From positions 1-36,182 of the IMG/VR virus record IMGVR_UViG_3300012936_000063: a stretch of DNA of 36,182 nucleotides, one strand, 5' to 3'. Made by a program: the position numbers and the translations under genes. The DNA comes from a virus. The notes beneath the pieces are model-generated. The model saw nothing but the letters and a program-made list of their open reading frames with translations. It had not been told where the DNA came from and made no database searches. Positions 1 to 34,544 of this stretch are shown here, piece by piece. How positions within the stretch are numbered: position 1 is the first letter of the stretch; each line of letters begins with the position of its first letter.

Positions 1-2251
1 AGCAGCTGCAGCAATATTAAAACCAATACAGGGTCCACTTGAATATCTTATAAACTTCTTGAAGTATACTTTCCTTACTTACATCGTAAAAAATCTATTC
101 AAGTGGTTTCAAAATCCAGATAACCAGAAGAAACTAGAATCTATTGGAAGATTCCTCAAAGACTGGTGGCCTGTACTTGTAGGTGCTTACTTACTATTTG
201 GAAATAGTATCTCAAGAGGAATATTTAAACTGGCAGGACTTTTAATAAAGGGAACTGCTAAGTTACTTAAGGTTGCGATTCCAAGTTTGATGAAACTTGT
301 AAGGCGCAATCCGAAAGCAGCTGCTGCAGCTGCACTATTTACTGCTGGTGCAACAGTTCCGATGCTGTTCCCAAATACAGTTGATGAACAGGAAAGAAAG
401 ATCACAGAAAAACCTGGATCTAATGAAGATAAGATTAAGAAACTCAAAGAACAGAAAGCAAATCTCAATCCTCTTCAGCAAATACAAGGGGTTGGCACAG
501 AAATTGATGAGCAGATTTTCAAACTTGAGACTGGTGAAACTAAGAGTTACAATGAAGGTGGTGCTGTAGAAGAAGAAGAGAAAAAGGATTCAAAAGAACT
601 TGATATGAGCAAGTTCTTACCTTTCCTTGGTCCTCTTGGACTTCCATTTTTAGTATCAAGTAAAGGGAAGGATGCGATTGAAGGTATTGTAGATAGTGTC
701 GAAAAGGATCCAAAGATGCTGCTTGCTCTGGGTCCAATGGCATTTCCTGTCATGGCAATGCTTGAGCAGAGAAAGAAGAAACAAAGCACGGCATCAAATC
801 AAGAGAAGAAAGATCCTGCTAGAGACATTACAACTGAAAGTGGAACTGATGTTACAGGTGCTGGTCCTGATACCCAACTAGTTCCAGCAAAACCTGGAGA
901 GATTGTAATAAACAAAGAGACAGTGGATGCTGTCGGATCCGAAACTTTTGATAAAATCAGTACCAACAGTGGCGAAAAGATTATGGGTGCTGGTCCAGAC
1001 ACTCAAATGATTGCGGCACGTCCTGGTGAAGTTATTATCAATAGAGAGACTGTCAATAGAGTTGGTGCTGGTCCTCTCCTAGGATTGAATAAAAAGTATG
1101 GCGGATCTAATGCCAACAAACCCAAGACTGCAAAGGTTCAAACAGCGATGGGTGGAGGATTTGTTCTTCCTACATTCCAAGGTGGTGGTATGGTTGGTGG
1201 TCCATCAATGGTAGAAGTTCCTTCTTTTGTTGATAGACCAGCGTCTGATTATGATGAAGGTGAAGAGACTCCAAACGTTAGAATACCAAGTCCTGGTGGA
1301 GAAGAGGAGAAGAAAGAACAAGAAATAGTATCTGCTGGTGGTGAAGGTGGACCTGTTGCTCCAGGTTCTACAGCACCTACTGCTGATGGATTGGAAAGTT
1401 TAAGTGTTGAACAGTTAACACAAAAGTTAGATCCCACTATCACAGGTGCATCCAATCCAGCAGTATTCAAAGCAGCAAGGGCAGCAAGAGAAGAAGCAAA
1501 AGCAGCAGGTCTGCCAAAAGAAGAGATTGAAAAGAAAGTTTTGATTGCAACCATTAGAGCAAAAACAAGTCCTCAGATTTCAGGTAATAACAAACCAACT
1601 CCTGCAGTTGTGACTTCTTCTAGTTCTCCTAAAGTTGGGGCAACTAGTTCTATGACGCCATTAGGAAACTTTAGTTTGAGTGGCAGTAGTGTGGCAGGAA
1701 GACCTCCTACTCAAGGTAAACCTCCTGCAGGACCATCAGAGAAGAAAGGTGGATTCTTCGGTATGATTAAGAGTGTGGTCAGTGCAGTAATGCCTCAAGC
1801 AGCACCTGTAGTCAATATGATTGGTGGACTTGGAAACACTATCTCTAAAGCATTTGGAGGAGGTGCAGTCAAAGAAAATAGCGGTATGGATATACCTGGT
1901 GCAACTGCAGATCGTCAACATATTGATGCTCAACCAGGTGAGTATGTGCTTCCACAACAAACTGTTGGAGCACTTGGTGGTCCATCTGCTGTAGATAAAC
2001 TGGTTGCTAAAACTGATAGTAACTCAACACCAGCAAAACTTGCTCCTGCTTCTATGAAGAAACCTGTTCCAGGACCACCAGTCCCAGAAGGAACTGCAAG
2101 TATGCAGGCACTCCCAGCAATCACAGGTGGATCTACTGGTGGTGGAGGAAGACAAGGAAGTTCAACAGAAAGACAAGTTCCTACTTTCTCTGCTACATCA
2201 CCTTACACTGGTGATCGCCAGAATAACGCAGATATCTACGGTATCCGATAA
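1..2251 (+). CDS. Tape-measure-like / tail structural protein, 5' partial
   Basis: The reading frame is open from base 2 to a TAA at 2249-2251, so the start lies outside the window and about 749 residues are visible; the TTG at 59 is not a convincing start. Two hydrophobic stretches (around nt 160-300 and 316-372, Ala-rich) are followed by a long low-complexity region rich in Gly, Pro and Glu. Three copies of a motif of the type G-x-DTQ-x3-A-x-PGE-x-V-I-N-x-E-T-V occur near nt 854-965, 983-1089 and 1886-2009. This PGE motif is common in phage tape-measure and tail proteins. The gene overlaps the next by one base (TAATG). A role in the tail tube or hub is inferred from the motif and from its position upstream of the hub genes. 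I cannot assign a T4 gene number. Confidence 0.6.
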   Translation, partial: AAAAILKPIQGPLEYLINFLKYTFLTYIVKNLFKWFQNPDNQKKLESIGRFLKDWWPVLVGAYLLFGNSISRGIFKLAGLLIKGTAKLLKVAIPSLMKLVRRNPKAAAAAALFTAGATVPMLFPNTVDEQERKITEKPGSNEDKIKKLKEQKANLNPLQQIQGVGTEIDEQIFKLETGETKSYNEGGAVEEEEKKDSKELDMSKFLPFLGPLGLPFLVSSKGKDAIEGIVDSVEKDPKMLLALGPMAFPVMAMLEQRKKKQSTASNQEKKDPARDITTESGTDVTGAGPDTQLVPAKPGEIVINKETVDAVGSETFDKISTNSGEKIMGAGPDTQMIAARPGEVIINRETVNRVGAGPLLGLNKKYGGSNANKPKTAKVQTAMGGGFVLPTFQGGGMVGGPSMVEVPSFVDRPASDYDEGEETPNVRIPSPGGEEEKKEQEIVSAGGEGGPVAPGSTAPTADGLESLSVEQLTQKLDPTITGASNPAVFKAARAAREEAKAAGLPKEEIEKKVLIATIRAKTSPQISGNNKPTPAVVTSSSSPKVGATSSMTPLGNFSLSGSSVAGRPPTQGKPPAGPSEKKGGFFGMIKSVVSAVMPQAAPVVNMIGGLGNTISKAFGGGAVKENSGMDIPGATADRQHIDAQPGEYVLPQQTVGALGGPSAVDKLVAKTDSNSTPAKLAPASMKKPVPGPPVPEGTASMQALPAITGGSTGGGGRQGSSTERQVPTFSATSPYTGDRQNNADIYGIR

Positions 2252-5200
2252 TGGCAATAGCAGGATTACTGGGAGCAGGAATGAGAGCAGCAGGCGGGGC
2301 GATGGTCAAGTCTGGTGCAAAGGGAATGACCAAAGGATTGATTGGTCGTAGAAAAAAGAAAGCACAGCAACAACAACCTGAAGTTCAGCAGGTTGATGTT
2401 AGAGTAGTTAATGAAAAACCTCAAACTGGAAATCAAATTTCTGGAATGAGTTCATTCTTGAGTCTTCCATCTGCAAAGAAAATAGGATCTAGTGGTGCGA
2501 AGGGAGTATCTGGTGTTGAAGAAAAACTGAATCTTATTAGAAGTCTCTTTGCTGAAAGATTTGCTTATGCAAAAAGCAAATCTCGTCAAGACGATATGGA
2601 AAAAGATCGTAAGAGAAAAGAGAAAAGAGAAAAGGAGTTAGAGAAAGAAGAAAAAAAATCAAAGGCAAAAGTAAAATCAAAGAATGCTCTCCCTAGAGTT
2701 GGGTTATTTGATAGCATTAGGAACTTTATTTTCTATACATTTCTAGCATTTTTAGAGAAGAGATTTAACTTCTCTCAGATGCTGGTAAAGGCATTACCAG
2801 TTATTTTGAATGTCGGTAAGTTTATTATTGATATTAGTGGTAAGATACTAAATGGTCTTGCTACTTTCATAGATTTTGGTTACGGTCTTGTAGATAAGAC
2901 CCGAGAGTTTGTAAAAAATCTTGGCGGTGAAGGTGTTTTACAGGCATTTGATAAGATGCTTGGTGCCATCAATACTGTCTTGAATGTGCTGTTCATTTAT
3001 GCAATGGCACAGTCTGCCCTTGGATTTGGTGGTGGAGGAAAAAAGGGTGGGGGACCAAGAGGATCTACTCGCCCAACTACAAGACCAGGACAAGGATTTA
3101 GACCTAAGGTAACAACGACTGGTGGTGGAGGTGTCAATAGACCAGATATCAGAAATCCTCTGAGAGATCGTCCTAGAGTCACTACAACTGGTGGTGCAAC
3201 TCCTGGAAGACCTGACATCAGAAACCCTCTGAGATCAAGACCAACAGTAACGACTGGTGTAGGTAAAGCTGCCGCTGGAGAAGCAGCAGAACAGATTACT
3301 AAGAAGACTGCTAAACAGGCACTTGGAAAGTTTGTACGTCCTTTTGTAGGAAGAATTCCAATACTTGGTGCTCTGATTGATTTTGGTATTTCAGCTGCTT
3401 TGGGAGACCCTCTTGGTAGAGCAGCAGCAAGAGCAACTGGTGCTGGAATCGGTGCTTCAGCAGGAACTGCTATTGCAGGATCACTGGGAGCCATTCTTGG
3501 ATCTGTTGTTCCAGTCGTAGGTAACTTCCTCGCAGGTGCTGCTGGAGGATTAGCTGGCGGTGCGATAGGAGGATTTATTGGAGATTGGCTTGGCGGATGG
3601 TTATATGATACCATTGCAGGAACTCCAAAAGTTGAAGCGAAGTCTAAAGGTGGAATGGTTCGTGGTTATGAAGAAGGTGGTTCTGTAGAGGAAGATGTTA
3701 AGAAGAAACTTTTGAAGAAAGATGATGTTAGAATAAAAGAACCTAAGGTTGACAAAGAAAATGGTCGTGGATTATCTAAGGTAGGTGATTCTGCTGCTTT
3801 GAGATTTGTTGAAAAGTCTGGTAAAGCATTCTCTAAGGTTCCCATCATCGGACCAGTATTAGCACTTGCTGCTGATAAACTGCTTGGCAATGAGACAGAT
3901 GCCAATGCATTCCAAGCAATATCAAACTCCTTGACTAATTTCTCTATGCTCAGTGCAGCTGGAGAAACAAAATCTTCTGGTGACTATGAAAAATTCACCA
4001 TGAAGTATAACTCTGGTGGAGAAGTAAAGGCATCTGGTCTTGGTCTGAATAATCCGATGGAAACTTCTAGATCTCTTGGAAGATTCTTGCATACTAAGTT
4101 CAATGCCATACAAGCAAATCTTCCAAATGCTCAACAATCAACAGGTGCTCAAGGTGAGGGAGAATATGACTCTGCTACTGGTGCCTTTATGGGAGGTAGT
4201 GGAAGTGATAGAGGATCTGCAACTGGTAGTGGTTCTGGAGGACCTCTTGATCTAGGAAGCACTGAGTATGGCGAGGGCCCACTAATAAAAGCAGCAACAG
4301 CAGCAGGATATAAAGATAAGGAACTGGCGGCATTCTTAGCGCAGATGGCACATGAAAGTGGAAACTTTCAGTATAGAAGAGAAATCAGTGGTGGAAGATC
4401 AGATTATGGTGGAGGAGGTCCTTATACTGCTCCAGATGGTAAAACATATCCAGCAAAATATCATGGAAGAGGTTATATTCAACTTACTCATGATTACAAC
4501 TATAAAAAATATGGAGATGAACTTGGTATAGATTTGTTGAAAAATCCAGAGTTGGCAATGCAAGGTGATGTTGCTGCAAAAATTGCTGTTTCATATTGGG
4601 AGCAAAATGTAAGACCCACTGTTAATGGTGATTGGGATAATGTATTTTTACATTCCAAAGCGATCAATTATCCCGCAGCAAAAAGTCCATCCGATGTAAA
4701 TGGAATGTCGGATAGACAAGCAAAATATGATAAGTATGTAAAACAACTTGGTAGTGGTGAACTCAGTCAAAAAATTGAGACTGCTATGACAACTCCAGTA
4801 CCAGGTCCTGGTGGAGATCCAGCAGCAGATGTTGAGAGGGGTGATCCATCACAGGCAGCTTCAAGACTCTTACAGGATTTCCCACAGATTAAATCAAGGG
4901 CAAACTCTCAGCAGATATATGCTTCTGGTTTAGGATTCTTCTTGAAGCAGAGTGGTGCTGGTGAAGGTGGTAAGGGAGACTTTGGTGATCCTCCTGGGGG
5001 TGATATGGAACACCCAGATCACGGTGGAGTTGTTGCATCTCATAGAGGTAAAGGTCATTATCAGGGTGTTGCACTTGATCTTGGAGGCAATAGTGCCGAC
5101 TCTGGTTCTTATCAGGATGACCAGAAAAAACTCTGGCCATTTGTTGTTAGGTTCTTGAAAAAGTATGGACTTGATCAAGAACCAACTGTGCCTCAAACTT

Positions 5201-5499
5201 TACATGGCACTGGAGAGAGCTTTTCTCCTAATGGTCCTGGTGGTGGTCCAGATCGTGGACACAGAGATCACCTTCATGTTGAGTTCCAAGGTGGTGGTCT
5301 GATTGGTAAGTCAACCAAACAGTATGGTGATATGTCCACTAAAGCATCTTATGAGAAGACTGGTTCCAGAGTTATGATTCAACCAGTCATCATTGAGAAG
5401 CAGGCACCTCAAGATAATTTCATGATGAACCCAATGGACAAACTAACTTTCGCTGGTCGTGGAAGGTTAAATAATACACCTGCGTTTAGTAGAGGATAA
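2251..5499 (+). CDS. Tail hub/tape-measure protein with GH19 and M15-type peptidoglycan hydrolase domains
   Basis: This 1082-residue protein has, in order: a highly charged coiled-coil-like segment (about 112-145); hydrophobic helices (158-214); a 23-residue tandem repeat (284-336); a Gly/Ala-rich glycine-zipper segment (379-457); a GH19 chitinase/lysozyme-type domain (about 674-835) with AHESG (candidate catalytic Glu702) and GRGYIQLT (739-746); and an M15-type peptidase domain (about 875-1017) with GHYQGVALDL (His936, Asp943) and HRDHLH (His1007, His1009), which fits the family's zinc-site pattern. GH19 enzymes cut glycan strands and M15 enzymes cut stem peptides. With the glycine zipper this suggests a tail protein that opens the cell wall and inner membrane during DNA entry. 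Its ATG overlaps the previous stop. The domains are recognised by motif; the placement in the tail is inferred. Confidence 0.75.
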   Translation: MAIAGLLGAGMRAAGGAMVKSGAKGMTKGLIGRRKKKAQQQQPEVQQVDVRVVNEKPQTGNQISGMSSFLSLPSAKKIGSSGAKGVSGVEEKLNLIRSLFAERFAYAKSKSRQDDMEKDRKRKEKREKELEKEEKKSKAKVKSKNALPRVGLFDSIRNFIFYTFLAFLEKRFNFSQMLVKALPVILNVGKFIIDISGKILNGLATFIDFGYGLVDKTREFVKNLGGEGVLQAFDKMLGAINTVLNVLFIYAMAQSALGFGGGGKKGGGPRGSTRPTTRPGQGFRPKVTTTGGGGVNRPDIRNPLRDRPRVTTTGGATPGRPDIRNPLRSRPTVTTGVGKAAAGEAAEQITKKTAKQALGKFVRPFVGRIPILGALIDFGISAALGDPLGRAAARATGAGIGASAGTAIAGSLGAILGSVVPVVGNFLAGAAGGLAGGAIGGFIGDWLGGWLYDTIAGTPKVEAKSKGGMVRGYEEGGSVEEDVKKKLLKKDDVRIKEPKVDKENGRGLSKVGDSAALRFVEKSGKAFSKVPIIGPVLALAADKLLGNETDANAFQAISNSLTNFSMLSAAGETKSSGDYEKFTMKYNSGGEVKASGLGLNNPMETSRSLGRFLHTKFNAIQANLPNAQQSTGAQGEGEYDSATGAFMGGSGSDRGSATGSGSGGPLDLGSTEYGEGPLIKAATAAGYKDKELAAFLAQMAHESGNFQYRREISGGRSDYGGGGPYTAPDGKTYPAKYHGRGYIQLTHDYNYKKYGDELGIDLLKNPELAMQGDVAAKIAVSYWEQNVRPTVNGDWDNVFLHSKAINYPAAKSPSDVNGMSDRQAKYDKYVKQLGSGELSQKIETAMTTPVPGPGGDPAADVERGDPSQAASRLLQDFPQIKSRANSQQIYASGLGFFLKQSGAGEGGKGDFGDPPGGDMEHPDHGGVVASHRGKGHYQGVALDLGGNSADSGSYQDDQKKLWPFVVRFLKKYGLDQEPTVPQTLHGTGESFSPNGPGGGPDRGHRDHLHVEFQGGGLIGKSTKQYGDMSTKASYEKTGSRVMIQPVIIEKQAPQDNFMMNPMDKLTFAGRGRLNNTPAFSRG
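3100..3258 (+). repeat. 23-codon tandem repeat inside the hub hydrolase gene
   Basis: Two full 69-base copies (3100-3168 and 3169-3237) and the start of a third (3238-3258) encode RP-x-VTTTGG-x4-RPDIRNPLR. The copies differ mostly by synonymous or mild changes. The segment is Pro/Arg-rich and is probably a flexible linker between the N-terminal helical part and the glycine zipper. Confidence 0.85.
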
Positions 5500-7119: not shown

Positions 7120-9776
7120 TGGAAAATAACTTTAACAGTGGTGTTTTTGGCGACAATATGTCGTTTTGGGAAGGCAGAGTTGCTGATGATTCTGCCTGGC
7201 AAACTAACACTGTTGACACAAATAGACCTGATCCAGAAAAACCTGGATGGGGTCAGAGAGTAAAAGTAAGAATATTTGGTAGAGATCCTGCAGATAAAGA
7301 AATTCTGCCCGATCAACACCTTAAGATGGCAACTATCCTGAACTCTCCTAATGCGGGTAGTGGTGCTGGTGGTGCCGTAATGTCTCATCAGATTAAGCAG
7401 GGAGATCTTGTCTTTGGTTTCTACATTGATGGAGTGGAGCAACAGCAACCAGTTATTATAGGAGTTCTTGCTCATAGTTCTCAGACTCAACTAGAAGCTG
7501 GAGATCCAGTTGAAGGGTTCACTGCAAGAAGTGATTACAAAGGAGTTTCTGGTGACAAGACAGTTGCTAGAAAAGATCAGGTCAGTGGAACAGGTCAACC
7601 AAGAGAACAAAACGATGATCCTAACCAAACAGGAGCATCAAATGATGATGAGGCTTTGGATAAAGCGAAAAAGACTCCTGTAAAGAGTAAGTGTGATAAG
7701 GATAACACTGATGCTAAAACCATCAAGGTTATAATGGATAACTTGATGTTGATGACATCATATGCAAAAGCGGCACAAAAGAATTCACAAAATAACCAAG
7801 GGTTTTCTTTAGCGTCTGCCCCAGATTTTTTAAGTGCAGAGAAAGATAAGTCTGCAAAACTCATCGCTGGAGTTTTGAAGGATACATTGGCAAAGGCAAG
7901 AGGTAGTGCTATCTCAGAGTTGAATGCTCAACTAGAAAAAGCAACTCCTTTATTATTTCCAAATCAAAGAGAAGAACTGAAGAAGGCAACAGAAAAGAGC
8001 ACCGATGCACTTGCTTGTGCTTTTAATAAAATTATTGCAGGTCTTATTGATTTAGTAAGCAATCTATTAGAGGATCTCATTAATCAATATGTTATTGCAC
8101 CTATTTGTGCAATAGAAGACTTTTTAGCATCTATTATTGATAGTATTGTTGGACAAATATCTGGTGCGTTGGAAAGTATTTTTGGCGCTTTCCAAAATTT
8201 ATTCGGAGGGAATCCTCTTGGAGATGCATTAGATTTTATCAGTGGTGCTTTTGATATTATTGCGGCAGTTGTCCAGTTCTTTACTTGTGATGAGCAAGAA
8301 AACTGTCCTGGATATGACGGGTGGTCTTTTGGTTCTGGTTCTGTTGAAGGTGGTGGATTCTCTGAAGGTCTTGGTAAAAAGTTAAAAGATATTGTTGGTG
8401 AAGGTGGTCCCACTGGAGAGTGCCCAGTTCTCCCAGTTCCATGTGGTCCACCATCTATTAGTTTCTCTGGTGGTGGAGGAACTGGTGCTGCTGGAAATCC
8501 AGTTGTAAATGTAGCAGGTGCAATCTTAGGTATTGATATTACAAATCCTGGAAGTGGGTACAACAGTTCACCAACTGTTTCGATTAGTGATGCTTGTGGA
8601 TCTGGAGCGGGAGCTGTTGCAAAGGCAGTTATTGGTCCTATTGGCGATCTCATTGATCCAAATGTAGATGGAAGTTCTTCTACAGTCACTTCTGGAGCAG
8701 CAGGATATACTCCACCTCAAGGTGTAACTCAAGTCCAAATGCAAGACTTTGGATTCAACTATTTGCAATCTCCTAATGGATCTTCTGGTGGTGCAGGTGT
8801 TGAAGTCTTGAATCCAGGAGATGCTATGTACATAACACCATTGATTTTTAATGGTGGTTTTGTTCCTGGTGGTGCTACTGTAACAGGCACAGGAACTGGT
8901 ACTGGAAGTGGTACTGGAACTGGAACTGGTGGTGCTACTGGTACTGGAACTGGTACTGGCACTAATGGTAGTAGTTACACTGGACTTGGTGCAAATAGTG
9001 GAGGATCTATTGAATATTTTGATTCAGGAGAAACATTCCCTGTCCAAGAAGGTGGTCAAATCGGACTTGGTGTTGGAGTAGAGGGATCAATATATGATGA
9101 TAATGGTGATTTAGTTCAAACTTTTATTGGACAAGGTTTCTCAAATCCAGTTGAAGTTGACTTTAATCTGAGTAATCAAAACTTTGATCTGTATGAATAC
9201 ACTGGAGATAGTCCTGATGATCCAAACAGTGGCGCTGCTCCAAACATTGATCCAAACTGGATGTTGATTTCGGATGATTTTGAAGATACCAACATACCTA
9301 TATGGAATCAAACAGTAACTTATTATCCTGGTTCTGTAGTCAGGTACAATGGAAGTCCATCTACTGGTTATTTCACAGTTCCTGGTGCATTAGATTCAGG
9401 AACAACTACTGTGATTGACTCCTCATCTGAGTTAACAAGTGGAAATACATATGCAGTAGTTCTATCTCTACAAGATGTTCTGATTACTGACCCTGGATAT
9501 AGTTATCAATCAGATGATAATATTTTCATTACGCCAAATAATGGTGCAAATCTCTCTGTAGAATACGATAGGTTTGGAAAAGTTACTAGAGTGAATATTT
9601 TAAATCCTGGATTGGGATTTACAGATATCCCAGAAATAGGTATAATATCTAATACTGGTTATAATGCTAGGTTCCGTCCTGTCTTTAACATCAGAAGACT
9701 TTCTGATGAGGACTTTGAAACTCTCCCACCAGGGACTGATGTTATCAGCGTTGTAGATTGTGTAGGTAAGTTCTAA
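7119..9776 (+). CDS. gp5: gp5-like baseplate hub protein (OB-fold, no lysozyme)
   Basis: The ATG at 7119 overlaps the cp12 stop and has GAGGA upstream; it is preferred to the TTG at 7116. The protein is 885 residues. Residues about 10-125 match the T4 gp5 N-terminal OB-fold: FWEGRV, then GWGQRVKVRIFGRDP, a segment with DQHLKMATI, and an ending of the type GDLVFGFYIDG followed by PVIIGVLAH. The rest differs from T4 gp5 (575 residues): there is no lysozyme motif, but an amphipathic helical region (about 190-395), then Gly-rich beta segments with NPGSGYNSSPTVSI-type repeats and a Thr-Gly linker (588-615). Gp5 sits at the centre of the baseplate and carries the membrane-piercing spike. Here the cell-wall enzyme and the spike appear to be separate genes (2251 and 9776). 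Confidence 0.78.
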   Translation: MENNFNSGVFGDNMSFWEGRVADDSAWQTNTVDTNRPDPEKPGWGQRVKVRIFGRDPADKEILPDQHLKMATILNSPNAGSGAGGAVMSHQIKQGDLVFGFYIDGVEQQQPVIIGVLAHSSQTQLEAGDPVEGFTARSDYKGVSGDKTVARKDQVSGTGQPREQNDDPNQTGASNDDEALDKAKKTPVKSKCDKDNTDAKTIKVIMDNLMLMTSYAKAAQKNSQNNQGFSLASAPDFLSAEKDKSAKLIAGVLKDTLAKARGSAISELNAQLEKATPLLFPNQREELKKATEKSTDALACAFNKIIAGLIDLVSNLLEDLINQYVIAPICAIEDFLASIIDSIVGQISGALESIFGAFQNLFGGNPLGDALDFISGAFDIIAAVVQFFTCDEQENCPGYDGWSFGSGSVEGGGFSEGLGKKLKDIVGEGGPTGECPVLPVPCGPPSISFSGGGGTGAAGNPVVNVAGAILGIDITNPGSGYNSSPTVSISDACGSGAGAVAKAVIGPIGDLIDPNVDGSSSTVTSGAAGYTPPQGVTQVQMQDFGFNYLQSPNGSSGGAGVEVLNPGDAMYITPLIFNGGFVPGGATVTGTGTGTGSGTGTGTGGATGTGTGTGTNGSSYTGLGANSGGSIEYFDSGETFPVQEGGQIGLGVGVEGSIYDDNGDLVQTFIGQGFSNPVEVDFNLSNQNFDLYEYTGDSPDDPNSGAAPNIDPNWMLISDDFEDTNIPIWNQTVTYYPGSVVRYNGSPSTGYFTVPGALDSGTTTVIDSSSELTSGNTYAVVLSLQDVLITDPGYSYQSDDNIFITPNNGANLSVEYDRFGKVTRVNILNPGLGFTDIPEIGIISNTGYNARFRPVFNIRRLSDEDFETLPPGTDVISVVDCVGKF
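8880..8963 (+). repeat. Thr-Gly hexanucleotide microsatellite in gp5-like gene
   Basis: About fourteen repeats of an ACTGGT/ACTGGA-type hexamer encode (Thr-Gly)n with a few Ser, Ala and Gly interruptions. The tract is a flexible linker in the hub protein and a likely site of slippage; hexamer changes keep the frame. Confidence 0.85.
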
Positions 9777-10420
9777 TGGCAGAAAACGAAGAAAAGAAAT
9801 CTTATCAGACTACAGAGTATGGTAATACTCATGGTGGCGTTAAGATGGGACACCTTCATAGTCCCAATGCTAACAAACCAGGGTCTGATGTTCAATCCGC
9901 ATTTTTGTGTAGAGGATCTGATCCTCTACATTACATTACTCTAGATAAAACTGGAAAAAGAGAGGGTTGGACAACAGTTCGTGCCCCAGATGTTTTCCAA
10001 ATAAAATGTGGTGATAAAACTGATGCAGGCACTCCTGCTATTATGATTGAAGCACTCAATGGAGACATTGTTTTAAAGGCTTCTAATGGTAGTATCAGAC
10101 TTCAAGCACTTGATGTTGACATCCAAGCAATCGGTGAAGACAACAAAAGAGGTAACATAGACATTAAAGCTAATGAAACGATTACTCTTGACTCAAAAAC
10201 GGTAAATCTTGGTTCAAAAAGAACCACTGCTATGAAAATATTATCTACTGGTATTGGAGAAATGACTTTTAAAACATCACTAACAATGTATTCTGGTATT
10301 GGAAAGTGTATTAGTTCCTCTGTAGGAGAGGGTGGAAAAGACTCTAAACTTGGAGGAAAAGATTTCCTTGACAGTGCAGTGAAGGAAGGCAAATCATCTA
10401 TCTTTGGAGGAATATTCTAA
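9776..10420 (+). CDS. Beta-helical central spike/needle candidate
   Basis: The 214-residue protein starts in a TAATG overlap with the gp5-like gene. Residues about 85-150 have the short alternating-strand pattern seen in gp5 and VgrG needle domains, such as GDIVLKASNGSIRLQALDVDIQ and NIDIKANETITLDSKTVNL. The N-terminus (MGHLHSPNANKPGSDVQS) carries no known motif that I recognise. T4 gp5 has its triple beta-helix on the same polypeptide as the OB-fold; here it looks split off as a separate gene. The C-terminus is Gly/Lys-rich. The call rests on strand pattern and gene order, not on a database match. It could instead be another baseplate hub component. Confidence 0.6.
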   Translation: MAENEEKKSYQTTEYGNTHGGVKMGHLHSPNANKPGSDVQSAFLCRGSDPLHYITLDKTGKREGWTTVRAPDVFQIKCGDKTDAGTPAIMIEALNGDIVLKASNGSIRLQALDVDIQAIGEDNKRGNIDIKANETITLDSKTVNLGSKRTTAMKILSTGIGEMTFKTSLTMYSGIGKCISSSVGEGGKDSKLGGKDFLDSAVKEGKSSIFGGIF

Positions 10421-11208
10421 TGGCAATGGAGTTTGATGATCTTGCAGTAGGCAAGAGACTTTTTGTTGGAGATGGATCACCAGTTGCGCTGGGCATTGGT
10501 CCTGCAGAAATTCGTGGTTCTGGGTATGTTGAAGGTCCTCTGATTGTCGGAGACCCATCATCATTTCCTATTCCTGCAGCAAACCTCATGGTTTCTCAGT
10601 GTGAAAATGATGATTCACCAACTCCTATTATTCCTGGTGCGATCTGTGGATTCAACCACAGTCCATATTCTTTAGCAGTTGCTGGAGATGCCGCGATCTT
10701 CCAAAATCTGACTCTGAATGGGCAGATTGAAGCAGGAACTCATGTTCTTGCTCAGGGTGAAGTTATCTCTAGATTTGGTGGAGGATTCCACATTCTCTCC
10801 CTGAAGAAAAACTTTGATATCCCTCACCCATCAAAAGAAGGATGGCGGCTGAGACACACTTGTCCCGAAGCACCATATAATGATGTGTATATTAGAGGAA
10901 GAGTTACTAGTAAGAGGGAAATTGAACTCCCAGATTACTGGAAAGACTTCGTAGATATTTCTTCTATCACTGTTAACTTAACTCCGATTGGTGCTCATCA
11001 GCATGTGATCATTAAGAGGATTGATGAGGAGAAGGTTTATTTACAATCTCAGGGTAATATGCCTATTGATTGTTTCTATCACATCTATGCAGAAAGGAAA
11101 GATGGTGATAGACTTATCCCAGAGTATCGTGGTGAAACTCCACAAGATTATCCAGGTGACAACTCCCAATATTCTGTTGTTGGTTGGAACTATGACGTTC
11201 GTGAATGA
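10420..11208 (+). CDS. Spike/fibre-associated structural protein, paralogue 1 of 3
   Basis: The 262-residue protein starts in a TAATG overlap with the spike candidate. A beta-rich N-terminal half contains an LTLNGQIEAGTHVLA segment. The C-terminal half (about 130 residues) is the shared domain: FDIPHPSKEGWRLRHTCPE, then VYIRGR, IELPDYW, VNLTPIG and a closing YRGETPQDYPGDN. I recall a similar 'HP...RLRH-C-EGPE-VY-RG ... LP-Y ... LTPIG' domain in other phage fibre and giant-virus proteins, but this should be confirmed by profile search. Three tandem copies directly after the spike gene suggest a decorated spike tip or hub-attached fibres. Confidence 0.6.
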   Translation: MAMEFDDLAVGKRLFVGDGSPVALGIGPAEIRGSGYVEGPLIVGDPSSFPIPAANLMVSQCENDDSPTPIIPGAICGFNHSPYSLAVAGDAAIFQNLTLNGQIEAGTHVLAQGEVISRFGGGFHILSLKKNFDIPHPSKEGWRLRHTCPEAPYNDVYIRGRVTSKREIELPDYWKDFVDISSITVNLTPIGAHQHVIIKRIDEEKVYLQSQGNMPIDCFYHIYAERKDGDRLIPEYRGETPQDYPGDNSQYSVVGWNYDVRE

Positions 11209-11221
11209 GGAGGTAAAGTAA

Positions 11222-12025
11222 GTGCCAGAAGAATCAGCAAAAAAGGGTGCGGATAAATCATCAGCACCGTCAGGATCTGGAAATGGTCCAGAAAAGGGAT
11301 TTGAACCAAGAACTAAAGGTAAACAAGACTGCTCTGAACCAGTAATCGTAGGTAAACCTAGCACACGTTATGATTATGTTCCAAAGCATCACAATGAAGA
11401 TAATGACTTTGATGCTGACCTCAAAGAACTAGTAGGAGAACAGTGTGAACCTTGGTATTATTATAATATGAAGGTTGGTGATCTCTGGGTAGATCAGAAC
11501 ATCCTTGCTAATGGAAATATTCAAGCTGTTGGTAATGTTTCTAGTAATGGTGGCGTACATGTTCTTGCTGCCAAGAAGAATCTTCCTTTTGATATTGACC
11601 ATCCAACCAAACCTGGATGGAGATTGCGTCATGTGTGCCTAGAAGGACCAGAGATTGGTGTCTATCTGCATGGAAAGAATAAAGGTAAGGTGATTGAACT
11701 TCCAGACTACTGGAGAGGTCTTGTCAGGGAAGAAACCATCAGTGTTCATCTGACTCCTATTGGTCAACCATATGTCCTTTTCATTGAGAAGATTGAGGAT
11801 AACAAAGTGTATGTTGAAACCAACTGGGAAACCTCAGGTAGAGACATTGAGTATAACTATGTGATTCATGCATCAAGAGTTGATGACGACTTGATTGTTG
11901 AGTATGAAGGAGAGTCTCATCTTGATTATCCTGGTGGTAATGAGGGATATACCTTTAACTATGAGCATAACTATGTCGAGAATCTGATTAAAGAAACTGT
12001 CAGAGAAGAAATGAGAGGTAACTAA
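11222..12025 (+). CDS. Spike/fibre-associated structural protein, paralogue 2 of 3
   Basis: This 267-residue protein uses a GTG start at 11222, supported by a strong GAGGAGGT ribosome site at 11207-11214. The N-terminus is hydrophilic (Lys, Ser, Gly, Pro) and differs from paralogues 1 and 3. The middle has NGNIQAVGNVSSNGGVHVLA. The C-terminal domain is shared: FDIDHPTKPGWRLRHVCLEG, VYLHGK, IELPDYWRGLV, VHLTPIG and YEGESHLDYPGGN. It ends with a short Glu/Arg-rich helix-like tail. The different N-terminus over a shared C-terminal domain suggests that the three paralogues attach to different partners or sit at different places. The function is inferred from position. Confidence 0.6.
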   Translation: MPEESAKKGADKSSAPSGSGNGPEKGFEPRTKGKQDCSEPVIVGKPSTRYDYVPKHHNEDNDFDADLKELVGEQCEPWYYYNMKVGDLWVDQNILANGNIQAVGNVSSNGGVHVLAAKKNLPFDIDHPTKPGWRLRHVCLEGPEIGVYLHGKNKGKVIELPDYWRGLVREETISVHLTPIGQPYVLFIEKIEDNKVYVETNWETSGRDIEYNYVIHASRVDDDLIVEYEGESHLDYPGGNEGYTFNYEHNYVENLIKETVREEMRGN

Positions 12026-12762
12026 TGGCAATCGGAACGTTTTTTCACGCTGAACCAAACGATGGACCTAATAAATCACAGATAAGTGGTGATGGTCCTA
12101 ATTCAATCACAGATGGTACGTTTCCCGAATGTGGTGTCGCAACATCACGAGGCAATGTTCACATTGATGCTTGTGGTAGTTTTAATGGCAATCTCCTTAT
12201 GGATGGTAACCTTACTGCCAATGGAGCATCTCACACACTTGCCTCTGTAACTATTTCTGGAACTACTATTAATGGCAATCTAACTGGCAATGTAACAGGA
12301 ACTGCATCTGGCAATAAAACTATTGGAAACTTTGACATTCCTCATGTAAAACAAAAAGGAAAAAGAATTCGTCACATCATTGCTGAGGGTCCAGAACCAG
12401 GCATTTATATCAGGGGTAAACTTGAAGGCACTAACATTATTAATCTTCCAGAATATTGGGATGGTTTAGTTGATCCAGACACAATCACAGTCACGCTAAC
12501 TCAGATTGGTACATCTCAAGATCTTATTGTTCAGGAGATTTCAGGTAGTGTAGTGATACTAAAGTCTGGAACTAGTGAAAGAATCCACTGTTTCTATGAA
12601 GTGTGGGCAGCACGTTGGTTAAATCCAATGAATCATGATGAGAAACTTCATGTAGTTTATGAAGGAGAAACACCAGATGATTATCCAGGTGGAAACGAAA
12701 ACTTCCTGATTGGAGGTTGGGACTATGACAGAAGGAATCCTCAGTGGGAGACACCTGAGTAA
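12025..12762 (+). CDS. Spike/fibre-associated structural protein, paralogue 3 of 3
   Basis: The 245-residue protein starts in a TAATG overlap with paralogue 2. Its N-terminal half has fibre-like short strands (NGNLTGNVTGTASGNKTI). The C-terminal domain is shared with the two genes before it: FDIPHVKQKGKRIRHIIAEG, IYIRGK, INLPEYWDGLV, VTLTQIG and YEGETPDDYPGGN. The cysteine of the RLRH-x-C segment in paralogues 1 and 2 is replaced here. It is the last gene of the hub block; a new promoter starts 14 bases later. Confidence 0.6.
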   Translation: MAIGTFFHAEPNDGPNKSQISGDGPNSITDGTFPECGVATSRGNVHIDACGSFNGNLLMDGNLTANGASHTLASVTISGTTINGNLTGNVTGTASGNKTIGNFDIPHVKQKGKRIRHIIAEGPEPGIYIRGKLEGTNIINLPEYWDGLVDPDTITVTLTQIGTSQDLIVQEISGSVVILKSGTSERIHCFYEVWAARWLNPMNHDEKLHVVYEGETPDDYPGGNENFLIGGWDYDRRNPQWETPE

Positions 12763-24200: not shown

Positions 24201-26126
24201 ATGAAAACTACTTTCAATCCATTTGAAAACTTACAGTCTCATACTAGCAGTTTTGCTAGTAATGAACCACAAGCATATGAAATCAGTGTAAACTCATCTG
24301 ATGACTGGCAATATGTCCATGACATCTTAATGCAAGATGGTACACTAGAGGATAACATTCCATCTAGATCTTGTGATTGTGTCTCCGATATGTGCTCCTC
24401 TCCTACAAGGAGTGTTTATCTTTTATCTGATGATGAAGTAGCACAACTTATCAATCACGAGAAAGTCAACTGGATTAGAAAGTCTCCTCTGTTTAATCAA
24501 GATGTAGTTGAGCAGAGAAAGTTAACTCAGGAGGCATTTCCAGATACTTTTACTAACAGATATAAGTTTAACATAGAATCTGTAAGAAACGATAGTGACA
24601 CTACATTATCATCAGATACTCTTGATTATACTCAATGGGGTTTATTGAGAGCACAGCAAGCATCAAATACATTTGTTGGTGTTGGAACTACTTCATTATC
24701 TTCTGACATTCAGTTTTCATTAACGGGAAAGCATGTTGATGTTGTTATCATGGACACTGGTATCCGTTGGGATCACCCAGAGTTCTTATCTACTGGATAT
24801 ACATCAGTTCCAGTTGGAGTTGCAACAACATCAGTAAGTAGAGTCAGAGATATTCTGATTCATGGAGCATTAGAGTATGGTATTGATTGGGCATCTGAAG
24901 GATTAGTTGCTCCTGGAACTGGAACTTTAGCAAATTATAACGAAGAGGGAGCACTCAACTCCACAACTTTTGGTGGTTCGTGGCACGGAAGTCATGTTGC
25001 TGGAACTGCTGCAGGAAATAATTTTGGTGCTGCATTTGAAGCAAACATCTGGAATATTGCATGTATTGATAGAGCAGACTTAGGGTTTGCAGATCCTGCA
25101 GATGGATTTGATTATATCAAGGTATGGCACAAGAACAAACCGATTAATCCAGAAACTGGTAGACGAAATCCAACTATTGTAAATGGCAGTTGGGGATTTA
25201 GAGAATTTGTTCAATGGAATGGTGCTACTTATAATGCATCCTTTAGAGGAAAAACATATAGTTCTACTGCCATAGAAGCAGACACGACTTTTTTACCAGC
25301 AGTTTACTGGATGGAGACTAACGGTAGTTTTTATGAGTTCACATCTGAGTTCTCTGGATCACAAACAACAACTAATGAAATATTTGATGATCCTGATTGT
25401 TCTGATATAGTTTTTGTCTTTGCTGCTGGAAACTCTGGTGATGGTAATGGCAAGCAAGACATTCCTGGAGGAATTGATTATGATAATACATTCTCTAATG
25501 CTACTTTTGCACTTGGAACTGGTGGCACACAAGACGCTGGAAGAGGAGTTAGCTCACTTAACTATTGTAGACCAGGAACTCCTGCTATAACTCACATAGG
25601 TCTCCCTGACGCTCCTATTGTAGTAGGAGCACTTGATGCTGATATTGATACTACTGCTGGATTCTCTTCAGAAAGAAAAGCATCATTTAGTAATAATGGA
25701 CCAAGAATAGATGCATGGTCAGCTGGACAAGCAATATTAAGTCCATGGTCTACTGGATTTGATGATCCAAGAAATACTGCTTTTCATAATCAGTATCTTC
25801 AAGGAACTAGTATGGCATCTCCAAATGTATGTGGAGTTCTTGCGCTTTATCTACAAGCAAACCCATCAGCAGACAGAACACAAGTTAGAAACTGGTTATT
25901 AACTAGAGGAACTATTGGAGTTGGAACTTATTTCAGGGACACTTATACTCATGAAGCAAATGGTCCTTCGGTAGGAGCAGGAACTTCAGTTGATTACTGG
26001 GCAAATGGATTTGAACCCAGAGATGCACCTCATAGAGTTCTCTATAATCCTTTTGCTAACAATCTCCAACCAAACATTTCAGGTGACATCAGCATTACTG
26101 GAGACATCTCCATCAAACAACTATAA
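24201..26126 (+). CDS. Subtilisin-like serine protease (S8 family) in fibre array
   Basis: The 641-residue protein has all subtilase signatures: DTGIRWDHPEF (Asp185), WHGSHVAGT (His262), FAAGNSGDG (oxyanion Asn411) and GTSMASPNVCG (Ser537), so it looks active. There is no signal peptide. Residues about 1-150 include a Cys-rich CDCVSDMC segment and a VYLLSDDEVAQLINHEKV part that could be an I9-like propeptide. A fibre-type VGVGTTSLS motif (about 154-162) precedes the catalytic domain, and the end has a short strand repeat (ISGDISITGDISI). Its ATG is one base from the stop of the 929-aa fibre, so the two are probably coupled. Likely roles are fibre maturation or digestion of host surface proteins by a virion-bound enzyme; both are inferred. 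Confidence 0.85.
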   Translation: MKTTFNPFENLQSHTSSFASNEPQAYEISVNSSDDWQYVHDILMQDGTLEDNIPSRSCDCVSDMCSSPTRSVYLLSDDEVAQLINHEKVNWIRKSPLFNQDVVEQRKLTQEAFPDTFTNRYKFNIESVRNDSDTTLSSDTLDYTQWGLLRAQQASNTFVGVGTTSLSSDIQFSLTGKHVDVVIMDTGIRWDHPEFLSTGYTSVPVGVATTSVSRVRDILIHGALEYGIDWASEGLVAPGTGTLANYNEEGALNSTTFGGSWHGSHVAGTAAGNNFGAAFEANIWNIACIDRADLGFADPADGFDYIKVWHKNKPINPETGRRNPTIVNGSWGFREFVQWNGATYNASFRGKTYSSTAIEADTTFLPAVYWMETNGSFYEFTSEFSGSQTTTNEIFDDPDCSDIVFVFAAGNSGDGNGKQDIPGGIDYDNTFSNATFALGTGGTQDAGRGVSSLNYCRPGTPAITHIGLPDAPIVVGALDADIDTTAGFSSERKASFSNNGPRIDAWSAGQAILSPWSTGFDDPRNTAFHNQYLQGTSMASPNVCGVLALYLQANPSADRTQVRNWLLTRGTIGVGTYFRDTYTHEANGPSVGAGTSVDYWANGFEPRDAPHRVLYNPFANNLQPNISGDISITGDISIKQL

Positions 26127-29789: not shown

Positions 29790-32700
29790 GTGGCAGATCC
29801 TAAAGTTAAACTAAAACGGTCAGCTGTAGCTGGTCGAGTTCCTAGTCCTGAACAGGTTCCTCTAGGCGAACTTGCTCTTAACACATGGGACGGACAACTA
29901 TATGCGTCTAGAAATGTAGGCGTTGGAACATCTGTCGTTGCTATCAACCCCTGGATAGTAGGCACAGGAACAGATTCATATAACATTTATTACACTGCTG
30001 GGAATGCAGGAATCGGAACTACAATTCCCCGCAACGAACTTCATGTCAATGGTGACATTAAGATTGATAGACATCTTAATGTCACAGGTATTGTCACAGC
30101 ATCTAGTTTTGTAGGAACTTTAACAGGAACTGCCACAGGATTAAGTGGCACTCCAGGGATTGCTGTAACTAATGTAACTGGGTTTGGATTTCTACGAGCA
30201 CCTCATAGTGCAACAACCACAGTTCTTACGGTTACAGTTGATTCAAAAGATGCAACGCATAGATATAACGGAACAGGATCTGGCAATGGTTATGTGATTG
30301 ATGGAGTACAATCTCCATTCTTGACTTTAACTCCAGGAAGAACTTATAGATTCGATCAGTCAGATTCTAGTAACAGTGGTCACCCATTTAGATTTTATCT
30401 TGAAGCAGGAAAAACAACACAATATAGCACTAATGTAACTACTAATGGATCTGCTGGTAGTGCAGGTGCATATACGGAGATCACGGTAACTGATACTACC
30501 CCAACAGTATTACATTATCAGTGTTCTGCTCATGGTTTCATGGGCAACTCAATTTTTGTAAGTTCAAATACACTTATAAGTCCTCACGCATCAACAATCA
30601 AGAACTACTTGACTGTTGATTCTGGTGCAAATATTTCAGGTGTAACAACTTTAGCAACAGCAAGTGCGACTTCTTTTACTGCAACTTCTACAGTTGTTGG
30701 ATCTGCAGTCACTCTTAACTCTGGTGGCGTTGTAGCGGGTCTTGGAACCATTAACTATATTAATGCCACACATCTGAATGCTACTGGTATTGTAACGGCA
30801 AACTCTTTCGTTGGTGACGGTTCTAATCTAACTGGTATTACTGGTGGAGTTTTTGCTACAAACCAAACAGGAATCAATACATCAACTAACATTGGTATTG
30901 GCACAACTTCGGCATTTAATGCACTTCAGGTTATTGGTGATGCAAATATTTCTGGTGTTGTTACTGCAAACTCCTTTGTTGGCGATGGTTCTGGTTTAAC
31001 AGGAGTTACTGGAACTGGATCTGGTATCGCTGTAAAAGATGGTGCCTCAACTGTAGGGACTGCTGGCACTGTTGATTTTGGTACAGCTCTATCAGTAACA
31101 CCACTCTCTGTAGGTATTGTAACAGTCAACCTTGCGAATACTGCAGTCACTGCAGGTGACTATACCAATGCAGATATCACCGTTGATGCTCAAGGTCGTA
31201 TTACTGCAGCATCTAATGGAAGTGGCGGCGGAGGAGGAAGTGGTGGAGGATTGTTTGCATCAAACCAAACAGGAATCCATACATTAACCAATGTCGGTGT
31301 CGGCACAACTTCAGCATTCAATGCTCTTCAAGTTGTTGGTAATGCAAATATTTCTGGTGTTGTTACTGCAAACTCTTTTGTCGGTGATGGTTCTGGTTTA
31401 ACAGGTGTCACTGCAGAATCTTCTGGAATCGTTATCAGAGATTCTAACAGTCTAATAGGAGTTGCTGCAACAGTTAACTTCGGAACTGGGTTGAGTGTAA
31501 CCCCACTTTCTGTGGGTATTGTAACTGTAAGTAATCTTGCCAAAACTTCTGGTGTTGACAGAACTGAAACGTCATTTACTGCAACTGATGGTCAGACATC
31601 ATTTACAGTTTCTTATGATATTTTAAATCCAATTGATGTCTTCTTGAATGGTATTAGACTCAAAGATAGCACAGATTATACAGCAACTAATGGAACTTCT
31701 ATTGTATTAACGACTAGTGCAGCTGCTGGCGATAGTCTAGTAGTCATGGAGTATTTTGCTACTACTGGCACATCAAATGAGAAACATGCAGTTGATAGAA
31801 AGATTACAGAGTTCACTGCAACTGCTGGACAAACAACTTTCTCTTTGGCATATACAGCAGGTAATATTGATGTATTCTTCAATGGTGTAAGATTATTAGA
31901 TTCTGATATTACAGCATCTAATGGAACCTCTGTTGTATTAGGATCAGCGGCAGCTGCTAGTGATCAGGTAGTTGTTGTTGAATATCTTGTCAGCACTACT
32001 GGTAACGGCATTACTGGTCAGACTGTGACCACATTTAATGCAACCGATGGACAAACTTCATTTAATGTCTCATATATTATCGGCGCGATTCAAGTATACA
32101 GAAATGGTATTCGCCTTGTAGAAGATAGTGACTACACTGCAAATACTGGAACTTCAGTTGTCTTGGCAAGTGGAGCAAACATTGATGATAAGATTGTAGT
32201 TGTAGAATCTCAAGGACTATTTGGTAGTAACCAAACTGGTATTAATACAACATCAAATCTTGGTATTGGAACTACATCTGCATATAATGCTCTCACAGTT
32301 GTCGGAGATGCAAATGTTTCAGGTGTTGTTACAGCAACTGGTGGTTTCAATATCGGCATTCAATCTGGTGGTATCAATGTTGTATCAGGAGTTGTAACTG
32401 CACTTAACTTTATTGGCGTTGGTAATACATTTTTATACAATGCAGGATCAAAAACTGTCGATATTAGCATTCAAGGTGGTGGTGGAATATCTGGTATTGG
32501 TATTGCACTCTCGACATATAACGTTGGTTATGGTCAAACTACCATTGAGTTTATCGGTTCTGGAGTCACTGCTGTCTCGATTGGTAATACTACGCAAGTT
32601 ACCATTGAACCTGGTCTTGTAGGTGCTGCCAAGTCTGTTACATCATTCATTGCAACTGCTGGTCAAACTGCATTTAATGTTGATCATAGTACTGGTCAAG

Positions 32701-34544
32701 AAAACGTCTTCTTGAATGGTGTTAGACTTTCAGAGACTGAATACACTACTAATGGATCTACGATTACATTAGACTCTGCTGCAGCACTCGGAGACGTTCT
32801 TGACATTGTTGTATACCTGAGAGGTTCTGATCCCAATAGAAATATTGAGGTTAACCTTAGACCGCCATTTAATGGTACTACAACGGCATTTACAATGTAT
32901 CGTGGGGCAAGCGATACATTATTCAGTCCTGTTGATGCGCGTCAAATAATCGTATCTCTTGGCGGTGTTATTCAGCATCCAGGCATTGCATACACAGTTG
33001 GTGCAGGATCATCAATCTACTTCGCATCTGCTCCTGGTGCTGGAAATACCTGCTTTATCACAGGTCTTTTCTCCACTCAGAGTGGCATTTCAACTGATGC
33101 TACTAAGATTGAAACTCAACTCTATACTCCAACAGGCATTCAAACATCATTTACTCTCACAAGAGGATATGAGCAGAACTATCTTGATGTATATGTAAAC
33201 GGTTCTCGTCTTGTTACTGGACAAGACTACACTGCGACAGATTCTTCAACATTCTCTCTCACATCTCCTGCACAAGCAGGTGATACTGTAGAAGCAGTTG
33301 CATTTAGAACTGTTGGTATTACCTCTGCAGTGACTGCTGGAATCTCAAGTAACGTTGATGGTAACTATGTCAACACCACACATCTGCGTACTAGTGGCAT
33401 TTCTACATTTGGTGGAGTAGGTATAGGAACAACTCAAACAATAACAGCGTATAGTGGTGTTGGAGTTGGTCAAACTTATGTTGGACTTTTTATTGGCGCA
33501 TCAAAACCAGATAATACCCAACAAAATCCTGCTTTTTATGTTAAAGAATCTTCTCAAGGTGTTATTTCCATTTTTGACAGCGGTCACACCAATGGTGGGT
33601 ACATGGAGTTCAGAAAACAAGGAACTCCAATCGCTGATATAGGATCTGCTTCTAGGACATTTTCAGTCGGTGAGGCAAATCATTTTGGAATCAATGCAAG
33701 ATTGGATCGTCCATTGATTCTTGGAGCAAATAATCTAGAGAAAATGAGAATTATCTCTAGTGGCAACATTGGAATTGGCACCACAAATCCAGAGCAGAAA
33801 CTACACGTCGCTGGTAATCTAACTCTTGGAGATCCAAATGGATCTGATAATACTTATATTGATCAAAAACAAAATGGTCAACTTAATCTCATTAATAGTG
33901 GAAGACAAGCTAATAGTGGTAGTGTAAGAATAAACAGAACTAATAGTATAGGTGGAGATATCACTTACTTTAGAGATTTTGAAGTTTATGATGGTAAAAC
34001 TAATCTTGTGCTTAAGGTAGATGGAAGCACAGGAAGAGTTGGTATCAATACGACCGCACCATCACATACATCTTATGCAACACTCTTTGTTCAAGGATCT
34101 CAGAAGGGAATAAGCATCAGAGATGATAGTGGTGTATATCGTGCGATATACATAAACTCTTCTGGTAACCTTTATTTCTATAATGGAAGCAACGAAGGTT
34201 ATTTGAATAATTCTGGTGCTTGGACTAATGCTTCTGATGAAAGACTGAAGCAAAATATTAGACCTATCGGATATGGATTGACAACTGCTTTAAGTTTGAC
34301 ACCAAGACATTATGAAATGCTTGAGGGTGGAGAAACTAACATTGGTTTCATTGCTCAAGAAGTTGAAGAAATTGTTCCAGAAGTTGTTTCATCTACTGAT
34401 AGTGCAACAGGATACAAGGGTCTTGATTATGGAAGTTTAGTTGCTATTGCAATCAAGTCAATCCAAGAGTTGAAAGAGCAAAATGATGCTTACTTGGCTA
34501 GGATTCAAGCTCTTGAGGCACAAGTGGGTATCGCATCCACTTAA
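29790..34544 (+). CDS. Giant mosaic tail fibre (1584 aa) with cupredoxin-like domain and S74 C-terminus
   Basis: The start is GTG at 29790. The N-terminus (PLGELALNTWDGQLYASRNV) is a typical fibre attachment domain. Residues about 165-256 form a cupredoxin-like domain with His198, Cys245, His248 and Met251 in the order GHP ... QCSAHGFMG. Shaft repeats (GIGTTSAFNALQV, GDGSGLTGV) and a Gly-rich hinge follow. Then come several copies of a 'GQT-x-F ... FLNG-x-RL ... GD-x-V' domain (about 593-1173). The end, from ASDERLKQNIRPI to GFIAQEVEEIVPEVV, is a Peptidase_S74 intramolecular chaperone with candidate Ser1482 and Lys1487. Cleavage near Ser1482 would release about 103 residues after trimerisation. 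This is probably a main receptor-binding fibre. Confidence 0.8.
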   Translation: MADPKVKLKRSAVAGRVPSPEQVPLGELALNTWDGQLYASRNVGVGTSVVAINPWIVGTGTDSYNIYYTAGNAGIGTTIPRNELHVNGDIKIDRHLNVTGIVTASSFVGTLTGTATGLSGTPGIAVTNVTGFGFLRAPHSATTTVLTVTVDSKDATHRYNGTGSGNGYVIDGVQSPFLTLTPGRTYRFDQSDSSNSGHPFRFYLEAGKTTQYSTNVTTNGSAGSAGAYTEITVTDTTPTVLHYQCSAHGFMGNSIFVSSNTLISPHASTIKNYLTVDSGANISGVTTLATASATSFTATSTVVGSAVTLNSGGVVAGLGTINYINATHLNATGIVTANSFVGDGSNLTGITGGVFATNQTGINTSTNIGIGTTSAFNALQVIGDANISGVVTANSFVGDGSGLTGVTGTGSGIAVKDGASTVGTAGTVDFGTALSVTPLSVGIVTVNLANTAVTAGDYTNADITVDAQGRITAASNGSGGGGGSGGGLFASNQTGIHTLTNVGVGTTSAFNALQVVGNANISGVVTANSFVGDGSGLTGVTAESSGIVIRDSNSLIGVAATVNFGTGLSVTPLSVGIVTVSNLAKTSGVDRTETSFTATDGQTSFTVSYDILNPIDVFLNGIRLKDSTDYTATNGTSIVLTTSAAAGDSLVVMEYFATTGTSNEKHAVDRKITEFTATAGQTTFSLAYTAGNIDVFFNGVRLLDSDITASNGTSVVLGSAAAASDQVVVVEYLVSTTGNGITGQTVTTFNATDGQTSFNVSYIIGAIQVYRNGIRLVEDSDYTANTGTSVVLASGANIDDKIVVVESQGLFGSNQTGINTTSNLGIGTTSAYNALTVVGDANVSGVVTATGGFNIGIQSGGINVVSGVVTALNFIGVGNTFLYNAGSKTVDISIQGGGGISGIGIALSTYNVGYGQTTIEFIGSGVTAVSIGNTTQVTIEPGLVGAAKSVTSFIATAGQTAFNVDHSTGQENVFLNGVRLSETEYTTNGSTITLDSAAALGDVLDIVVYLRGSDPNRNIEVNLRPPFNGTTTAFTMYRGASDTLFSPVDARQIIVSLGGVIQHPGIAYTVGAGSSIYFASAPGAGNTCFITGLFSTQSGISTDATKIETQLYTPTGIQTSFTLTRGYEQNYLDVYVNGSRLVTGQDYTATDSSTFSLTSPAQAGDTVEAVAFRTVGITSAVTAGISSNVDGNYVNTTHLRTSGISTFGGVGIGTTQTITAYSGVGVGQTYVGLFIGASKPDNTQQNPAFYVKESSQGVISIFDSGHTNGGYMEFRKQGTPIADIGSASRTFSVGEANHFGINARLDRPLILGANNLEKMRIISSGNIGIGTTNPEQKLHVAGNLTLGDPNGSDNTYIDQKQNGQLNLINSGRQANSGSVRINRTNSIGGDITYFRDFEVYDGKTNLVLKVDGSTGRVGINTTAPSHTSYATLFVQGSQKGISIRDDSGVYRAIYINSSGNLYFYNGSNEGYLNNSGAWTNASDERLKQNIRPIGYGLTTALSLTPRHYEMLEGGETNIGFIAQEVEEIVPEVVSSTDSATGYKGLDYGSLVAIAIKSIQELKEQNDAYLARIQALEAQVGIAST
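30853..31530 (+). repeat. Internal tandem duplication in the 1584-aa fibre
   Basis: Two related blocks (about 30853-31140 and 31258-31530) each encode NQTGI-x-T ... GTTSAFNALQV ... GDGSGLTGV ... LSVTPLSVGIVTV. They are separated by a Gly-rich hinge (about 31222-31254). A partial third copy lies at about 32221-32355 and a related copy in the 929-aa fibre at about 23610-23772. Confidence 0.75.
30990..31029 (+). repeat. 40-base exact repeat, copy 2
   Basis: Identical to 26400-26439 in the 271-aa fibre gene. Confidence 0.85.
31567..33305 (+). repeat. Array of about six fibre domains in the 1584-aa protein
   Basis: Copies start near 31567, 31806, 32025, 32635, 32870 and 33110. The pattern is T-x-F-x-A-x-x-GQT-x-F, then (D/N)VF-x-NG-x-RL, then GD-x-V-x-V. 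The fifth copy is the most diverged, and a shaft segment (about 32215-32630) separates copies three and four. One further copy occurs in the 929-aa fibre (about 21720-21905). Confidence 0.72.

Follow-up and report, generated by a model that had tools for sequence, protein, structure and literature searches.

A blue-copper-type domain with a candidate type-1 ligand set in a tail fibre of a marine T4-like phage

A tail fibre encoded in the viral DNA that we analysed (an IMG/VR virus record of 36,182 bases, referred to here as the window) contains a domain that sequence comparisons, with a fold taken from a structural model, support as a member of the cupredoxin superfamily and as kin to plastocyanin and amicyanin, both blue copper proteins. 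We consider it likely that fibre residues 143-258 form a cupredoxin with a complete type-1 ligand set, belonging to a mobile extracellular module that would take up copper after lysis and have a stabilising or adhesive role. Copies of the module occur both in the virion proteins of marine tailed phages and, among marine Bacteroidetes, in proteins that are secreted or exposed at the surface.

The gene content of the window is that of the tail region of a T4-like marine phage, with a baseplate hub, a tail protein, several tail fibres and fibre assembly among the PHROG assignments. Among named phages, the tail protein is closest to those of Synechococcus and Prochlorococcus phages (only 30-39% identity), and the fibre domain to that of Synechococcus phage Bellamy (68%); judged from these relatives, the window phage is likely a cyanophage. 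The positions of the fibre gene, of the domain and its candidate ligands, and of the neighbouring features are given in Table 1. An HMM scan of the window detected no second copy of the domain and no cupredoxin domain at the C-terminus of the subtilisin-like protein encoded in the same gene cluster. A nucleotide match to the domain at 8770-8799 was rejected, its 30 bases coding for a Gly/Ser-rich stretch of a gp5-like protein. Elsewhere in the window we observed three tandem paralogous genes (10420-12762; 262, 267 and 245 aa), each with a match to phrog_17490/phrog_28536, families to which no function is assigned, and a 1082-aa structural protein (2251-5499) of which residues 687-859 resemble an endolysin (phrog_181, 2.5e-27).

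Table 1. Features of the fibre gene, its cupredoxin-like domain and the surrounding cluster, in window coordinates
Feature	Position	Strand	Basis
Subtilisin-like structural protein, same fibre gene cluster	24201..26126	+	Pfam PF00082 4.1e-25; phrog_9158
Tail fibre gene carrying the domain, 1584 aa, GTG start	29790..34544	+	ORF; PHROG tail fibre families phrog_30742 (5.6e-68), phrog_1980
Cupredoxin-like (blue-copper-type) domain, fibre residues 143-258	30216..30563	+	AlphaFold2, Foldseek, bridging-family HMM
H157, His conserved throughout the window's subfamily	30258..30260	+	46/46 in A1 (46-sequence alignment)
H198, N-terminal His candidate ligand (SGHPF)	30381..30383	+	287/292 in family
C245, Cys thiolate candidate ligand, end of penultimate strand	30522..30524	+	286/292 in family
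H248, C-terminal His candidate ligand	30531..30533	+	286/292 in family
M251, Met candidate ligand, just before last strand	30540..30542	+	286/291 in family
S74 intramolecular chaperone, fibre C-terminus (residues 1482-1533)	34233..34388	+	Pfam PF13884, 1e-12

The original prediction had named H198, C245, H248 and M251 as candidate copper ligands, and all four were found at exactly those positions, H198 within SNSGHPFRF and the other three within LHYQCSAHGFMGNS. The span that it had proposed, 30279-30558, falls on the domain, but its ends had to be revised because the first strand was cut off (the AlphaFold2 strands cover residues 143-257, window about 30216-30563). The whole fibre contains two Cys residues (C245 and C1088) and six Met residues, and the domain has no conserved Cys besides C245. 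When the fibre sequence was shuffled 100,000 times, the motif C-x2-H-x2-M appeared in 9 of the shuffled sequences, a frequency of about 1e-4 that applies to this one motif in this protein. The loop motif alone is therefore unlikely to occur by chance, and a chance motif was ruled out by the shuffles together with the conservation described below.

Direct searches yielded no cupredoxin match for the domain. The window's subfamily was not recognised by the Pfam cupredoxin families, by NCBIfam or in PDB sequence searches; the window domain had no match to Pfam PF00127 Copper-bind even at E 10 and did not reach its curated cut-off. A phmmer search of the PDB with the single domain sequence returned nothing, and the profile of the window's subfamily (A1) retrieved only antibodies and pseudoazurin at E 0.2-0.7. 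The homology link therefore had to be drawn through a bridging family. A Bacteroidetes genome with a window-type domain also encodes a protein with a C-terminal domain (L101) that scored 32.9 bits against Pfam Copper-bind, for which the cut-off is 21.2, and the relatives of L101, which form the bridge family (A2), were abundant in viral contigs. PF00127 was matched by 35 of the 42 aligned bridge members (best 3.9e-9) and Cupredoxin_1 by 18 of the 42, while the bridge profile detected plastocyanin (2plt, 9e-5), amicyanin (1sfd, 1.9e-4), pseudoazurin (3tu6, 2.8e-4) and also copper nitrite reductase in the PDB. The window's family and the bridge family were connected by hhalign (A1 against A2, 97.5%, E 7.5e-12) and by reciprocal HMM matches down to about 1e-17, and the bridge HMM matched the window fibre itself at residues 174-257 (E 4.6e-9). 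The profile search suggested in the original prediction thus reached the cupredoxin families by way of the bridge and not by a direct match to PF00127. The prediction had also compared the loop with the C-x2-H-x4-M of plastocyanin; the alignment of the bridge profile with solved structures corrected this, since amicyanin has C-x2-H-x2-M, the same spacing as the phage domain.

Kinship with three other families was considered. CBM_4_9 (PF02018) was rejected, with a score of 17 bits below the cut-off of 25.9 and no support from the fold search. The window domain did not match Pfam PF25489 (At5g54830-like domain), which was matched weakly by 9 of the 46 A1 members. A Bacteroidetes member, L370 (1501-1842), reached the PF25489 cut-off with 27.0 bits, and the plant-named family may therefore also be a cupredoxin relative; its kinship with the fibre domain is tentative. 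Kinship with Knickkopf/DOMON was dropped as well, no paper on it being found in the open-access literature searched.

The AlphaFold2 model of the domain, built with the A1 alignment, had a pLDDT of 94.2 and was almost all-beta, with nine strands over residues 143-257. In this model C245 lies at the end of the penultimate strand and M251 just ahead of the last one, and the strand positions are compatible with the candidate ligands forming one type-1 site. Comparison with the PDB using Foldseek returned blue-copper or laccase cupredoxins for 50 of the best 50 matches, including rusticyanin (E 8.6e-4), two-domain laccases and McoA, in agreement with the Greek-key beta-barrel of cupredoxin type that had been anticipated. 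The TM-scores were modest, 0.40-0.53 for the window domain with an rmsd of 5-8 Å (0.40-0.58 with the bridge family included), and thus show the type of fold and not a close superposition. The model of the bridge family was found by Foldseek to fold like plastocyanin and amicyanin. With Foldseek, the model of the phage domain also matched four BFVD entries (A0A481YY19, A0A481YWX9, A0A481Z7Q7 and A0A481Z6J5; E 3e-8 to 2e-7), all of them beta-sandwich proteins from metagenome viruses named after Marseillevirus and Pithovirus (LCMAC/LCPAC).

The four candidate ligands were strongly conserved. Among 81 aligned relatives, H198 and M251 were present in all 81 and C245 and H248 in 77 each; the complete set was found in 281 of 294 copies of the window's family, and in a wider set of the bridge family it was kept in 93 of 97 complete copies, all of these being upper bounds since some of the peptide patterns used in the collection scans contained ligand residues. 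In the 42 bridge members all four ligands were among the eight invariant columns. Cultured phages P-SSM2, P-HM1, S-H9-1 and ACG-2014e kept all four as well. The His-Cys-His-Met set that the prediction had described is therefore present in the order of type-1 sites, with its C-x2-H-x2-M spacing fixed in 289 of 290 copies, and it is conserved in marine phage fibres, Cys and His being lost only in blocks.

These blocks consisted of Ser/Asp in place of Cys/His, Asp/Leu in place of His/Met, or replacements of the whole set (Tyr/Asp/Tyr/Arg and Tyr/Asp/Phe/Gly), with similar blocks in the bridge family. The coupled loss was tested on clustered representatives, 143 from the window's family and 58 from the bridge (201 together). 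All 26 ligand changes (12 + 14) were confined to 8 of the 201 representatives (4 + 4), and no single-ligand loss was observed, while independence would predict 11.3 single-loss sequences in the window's family and 11.6 in the bridge, about 23 in total. None of 20,000 permutations in each family was as low as the observed value, and control columns of equal conservation showed single changes in about 86% of cases. The loss of ligands only as a group is the signature of a metal site, and the comparison of sequences supports the view that the four residues behave as one functional site. H157 is probably not a copper ligand, since it is kept in a group of sequences that has lost both Cys and His.

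The same data bear on a reading in which the domain would be a metal-free Ig-like decoration of cupredoxin ancestry, its conserved residues being needed for folding or for recognition of the host surface. Ig-like beta-sandwiches are common decorations of phage surfaces, and giant baseplate proteins still contain degenerate copies that have no ligands. Four domain copies in giant structural proteins of single phages had lost most or all ligands, and the persistence of such copies in very large structural proteins implies that the scaffold can work without metal. However, folding alone explains neither a lone conserved Cys without a partner nor the all-or-none loss of exactly four ligands from copies that keep 10-15 of 15 scaffold positions, and we regard a metal-free decoration as very improbable.

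We infer copper in a type-1 site as the bound metal because the fold and the order and spacing of the ligands match those of amicyanin. The same four residues could instead form a site of another type, holding zinc or another soft metal in a purely structural role. The coupled loss points to a site without saying which metal it holds, and assembly in the cytoplasm would make zinc available before copper. Phage fibres with iron on HxH motifs are also known (T4 gp37, cited in PMC11705849). Against this, a His-Cys-His-Met set with this order and spacing, in such a fold, is that of the blue copper proteins, and a conserved axial Met, here kept at 98%, is unusual for structural zinc. On balance we consider a site for zinc or another metal unlikely, and copper remains the preferred assignment.

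The domain type of the window was found in 65 phage records, mostly of Synechococcus and Prochlorococcus phages but also of phages of Methylophilales (Melnitz) and Pelagibacter, and the bridge type in 266 phage records, 261 of which are named Synechococcus, Prochlorococcus or cyanophage. The proposed link to photosynthetic hosts therefore holds as a concentration in cyanophages, most clearly for the bridge type, but it is not exclusive, given the Pelagibacter and Methylophilales phages and the Bacteroidetes. The phage carriers of the module are tail fibres, baseplate wedge and connector proteins and a subtilisin-like structural protein. A single phage can have several copies: in Bellamy an 851-aa fibre, a 483-aa tail fibre and the baseplate wedge initiator all gave matches, and in one 200-kb viral contig four large proteins did, some of the copies lacking ligands. 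Within other phage proteins the domain occupied residues 286-384 of 851, 77-175 of 520 and 294-394 of 486. In S-H9-1 a protein annotated as a subtilisin-like protease ends in a cupredoxin domain with intact ligands, as does a hypothetical protein of neighbouring type in ACG-2014e, and the subtilase homologue of P-SSM2 is encoded close to the domain-bearing fibre. The Bacteroidetes carriers are huge repeat proteins and secreted-looking proteins; in four of them the cupredoxin domain has all four ligands and is joined to repeats that by sequence appearance resemble CHRD domains. None of the annotated records that we inspected names copper or cupredoxin for the domain.

Another reading is a module for redox reactions or electron transfer, which would exchange electrons at the host surface or in the periplasm, or scavenge copper or superoxide near the adsorbing virion. 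Soluble cupredoxins with the amicyanin loop, amicyanin itself among them, are electron carriers; the concentration in cyanophages and the Bacteroidetes fusions to CHRD-resembling repeats would suit such a function. Yet Pfam and PHROG searches of the window revealed no adjoining redox enzyme or partner, the 1584-aa fibre has a single module without a conserved acceptor, and the module also occurs in phages of heterotrophs, which together make a redox function quite unlikely. The mix of proteins in which the domain is found is explained best by a module with a stiffening or protective function that is also adhesive.

For such a stabilising module we propose the following course of events. The fibre would be made in the cytoplasm without copper, and after lysis the exposed domain would bind one copper ion from seawater or cell debris. 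The bound copper would lock the loop and the domain; the fibre would thereby gain stiffness and better resist unfolding and proteolysis, and an adhesive surface would be held in shape. Free copper is very scarce in the cytoplasm, the site of fibre assembly, which favours loading after lysis, and extracellular uptake of copper is what we infer. The domain lies in the N-terminal sixth of the window fibre, at the end that is probably directed towards the virion, and it is therefore less likely to be the receptor-binding tip; the presumed role of copper would be to stabilise the fibre or to support adhesion.

The sequences and models suggest that phage particles in the ocean may carry copper. With several domain-bearing structural proteins per phage and the copy number of the fibres, there would be many domains per virion. 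It is conceivable, though rather doubtful, that marine tailed phages, especially T4-like cyanophages, have many copper-loaded domains per virion, that their virions act as a pool that binds copper in seawater and that the copper aids survival or adsorption. If copper is bound, marine virions would be copper-bearing particles, in parallel to the proposal of iron in tail fibres, and the influence of copper on phage adsorption and decay could be put to the test. The copies that lost their ligands as a block offer a built-in natural control, a natural metal-free form. A cupredoxin lineage with an intact candidate copper site occurs in tail fibres, baseplates and a tail-associated subtilisin across hundreds of marine phage records.

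Known cupredoxins serve as electron carriers or form domains of copper enzymes. The fibre domain has in common with PF00127 Copper-bind (amicyanin, pseudoazurin) the cupredoxin fold, the His...Cys-His-Met order and the strand positions of Cys and Met, and with amicyanin in particular the C-x2-H-x2-M loop. It differs in that PF00127 does not detect the sequence of the window domain itself and in that it lies within a giant fibre and has an N-terminal HRYNGxGS element instead of being a small free electron carrier. Plastocyanin, with C-x2-H-x4-M, is likewise a small soluble electron carrier and not a domain inside a 1584-aa fibre. The profiles of phrog_30742, phrog_693, phrog_677 and phrog_708 (tail fibre, connector, baseplate) match the same domain and are annotated as tail or baseplate only, without a metal or cupredoxin label. 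The open-access literature that we searched yielded no account of cupredoxin domains as parts of phage virions: in the cyanophage papers checked, 'plastocyanin' is the auxiliary gene petE, and the nearest copper paper concerns viral NirK. The domain would represent a copper fold of known type that turns up in a new context, metal in phage fibres being already known for iron. Among phage fibres and spikes, HxH motifs that bind iron are described for T4 gp37 and Alteromonas phage R22Y (PMC11705849, which also cites the Ferrojan horse hypothesis). The likeness to these iron fibres would be the presence of a metal in a marine phage tail fibre. The sites themselves differ, those of the HxH fibres being octahedral and made of His pairs, while that of the fibre domain would be a His2-Cys-Met set within a single-chain cupredoxin.
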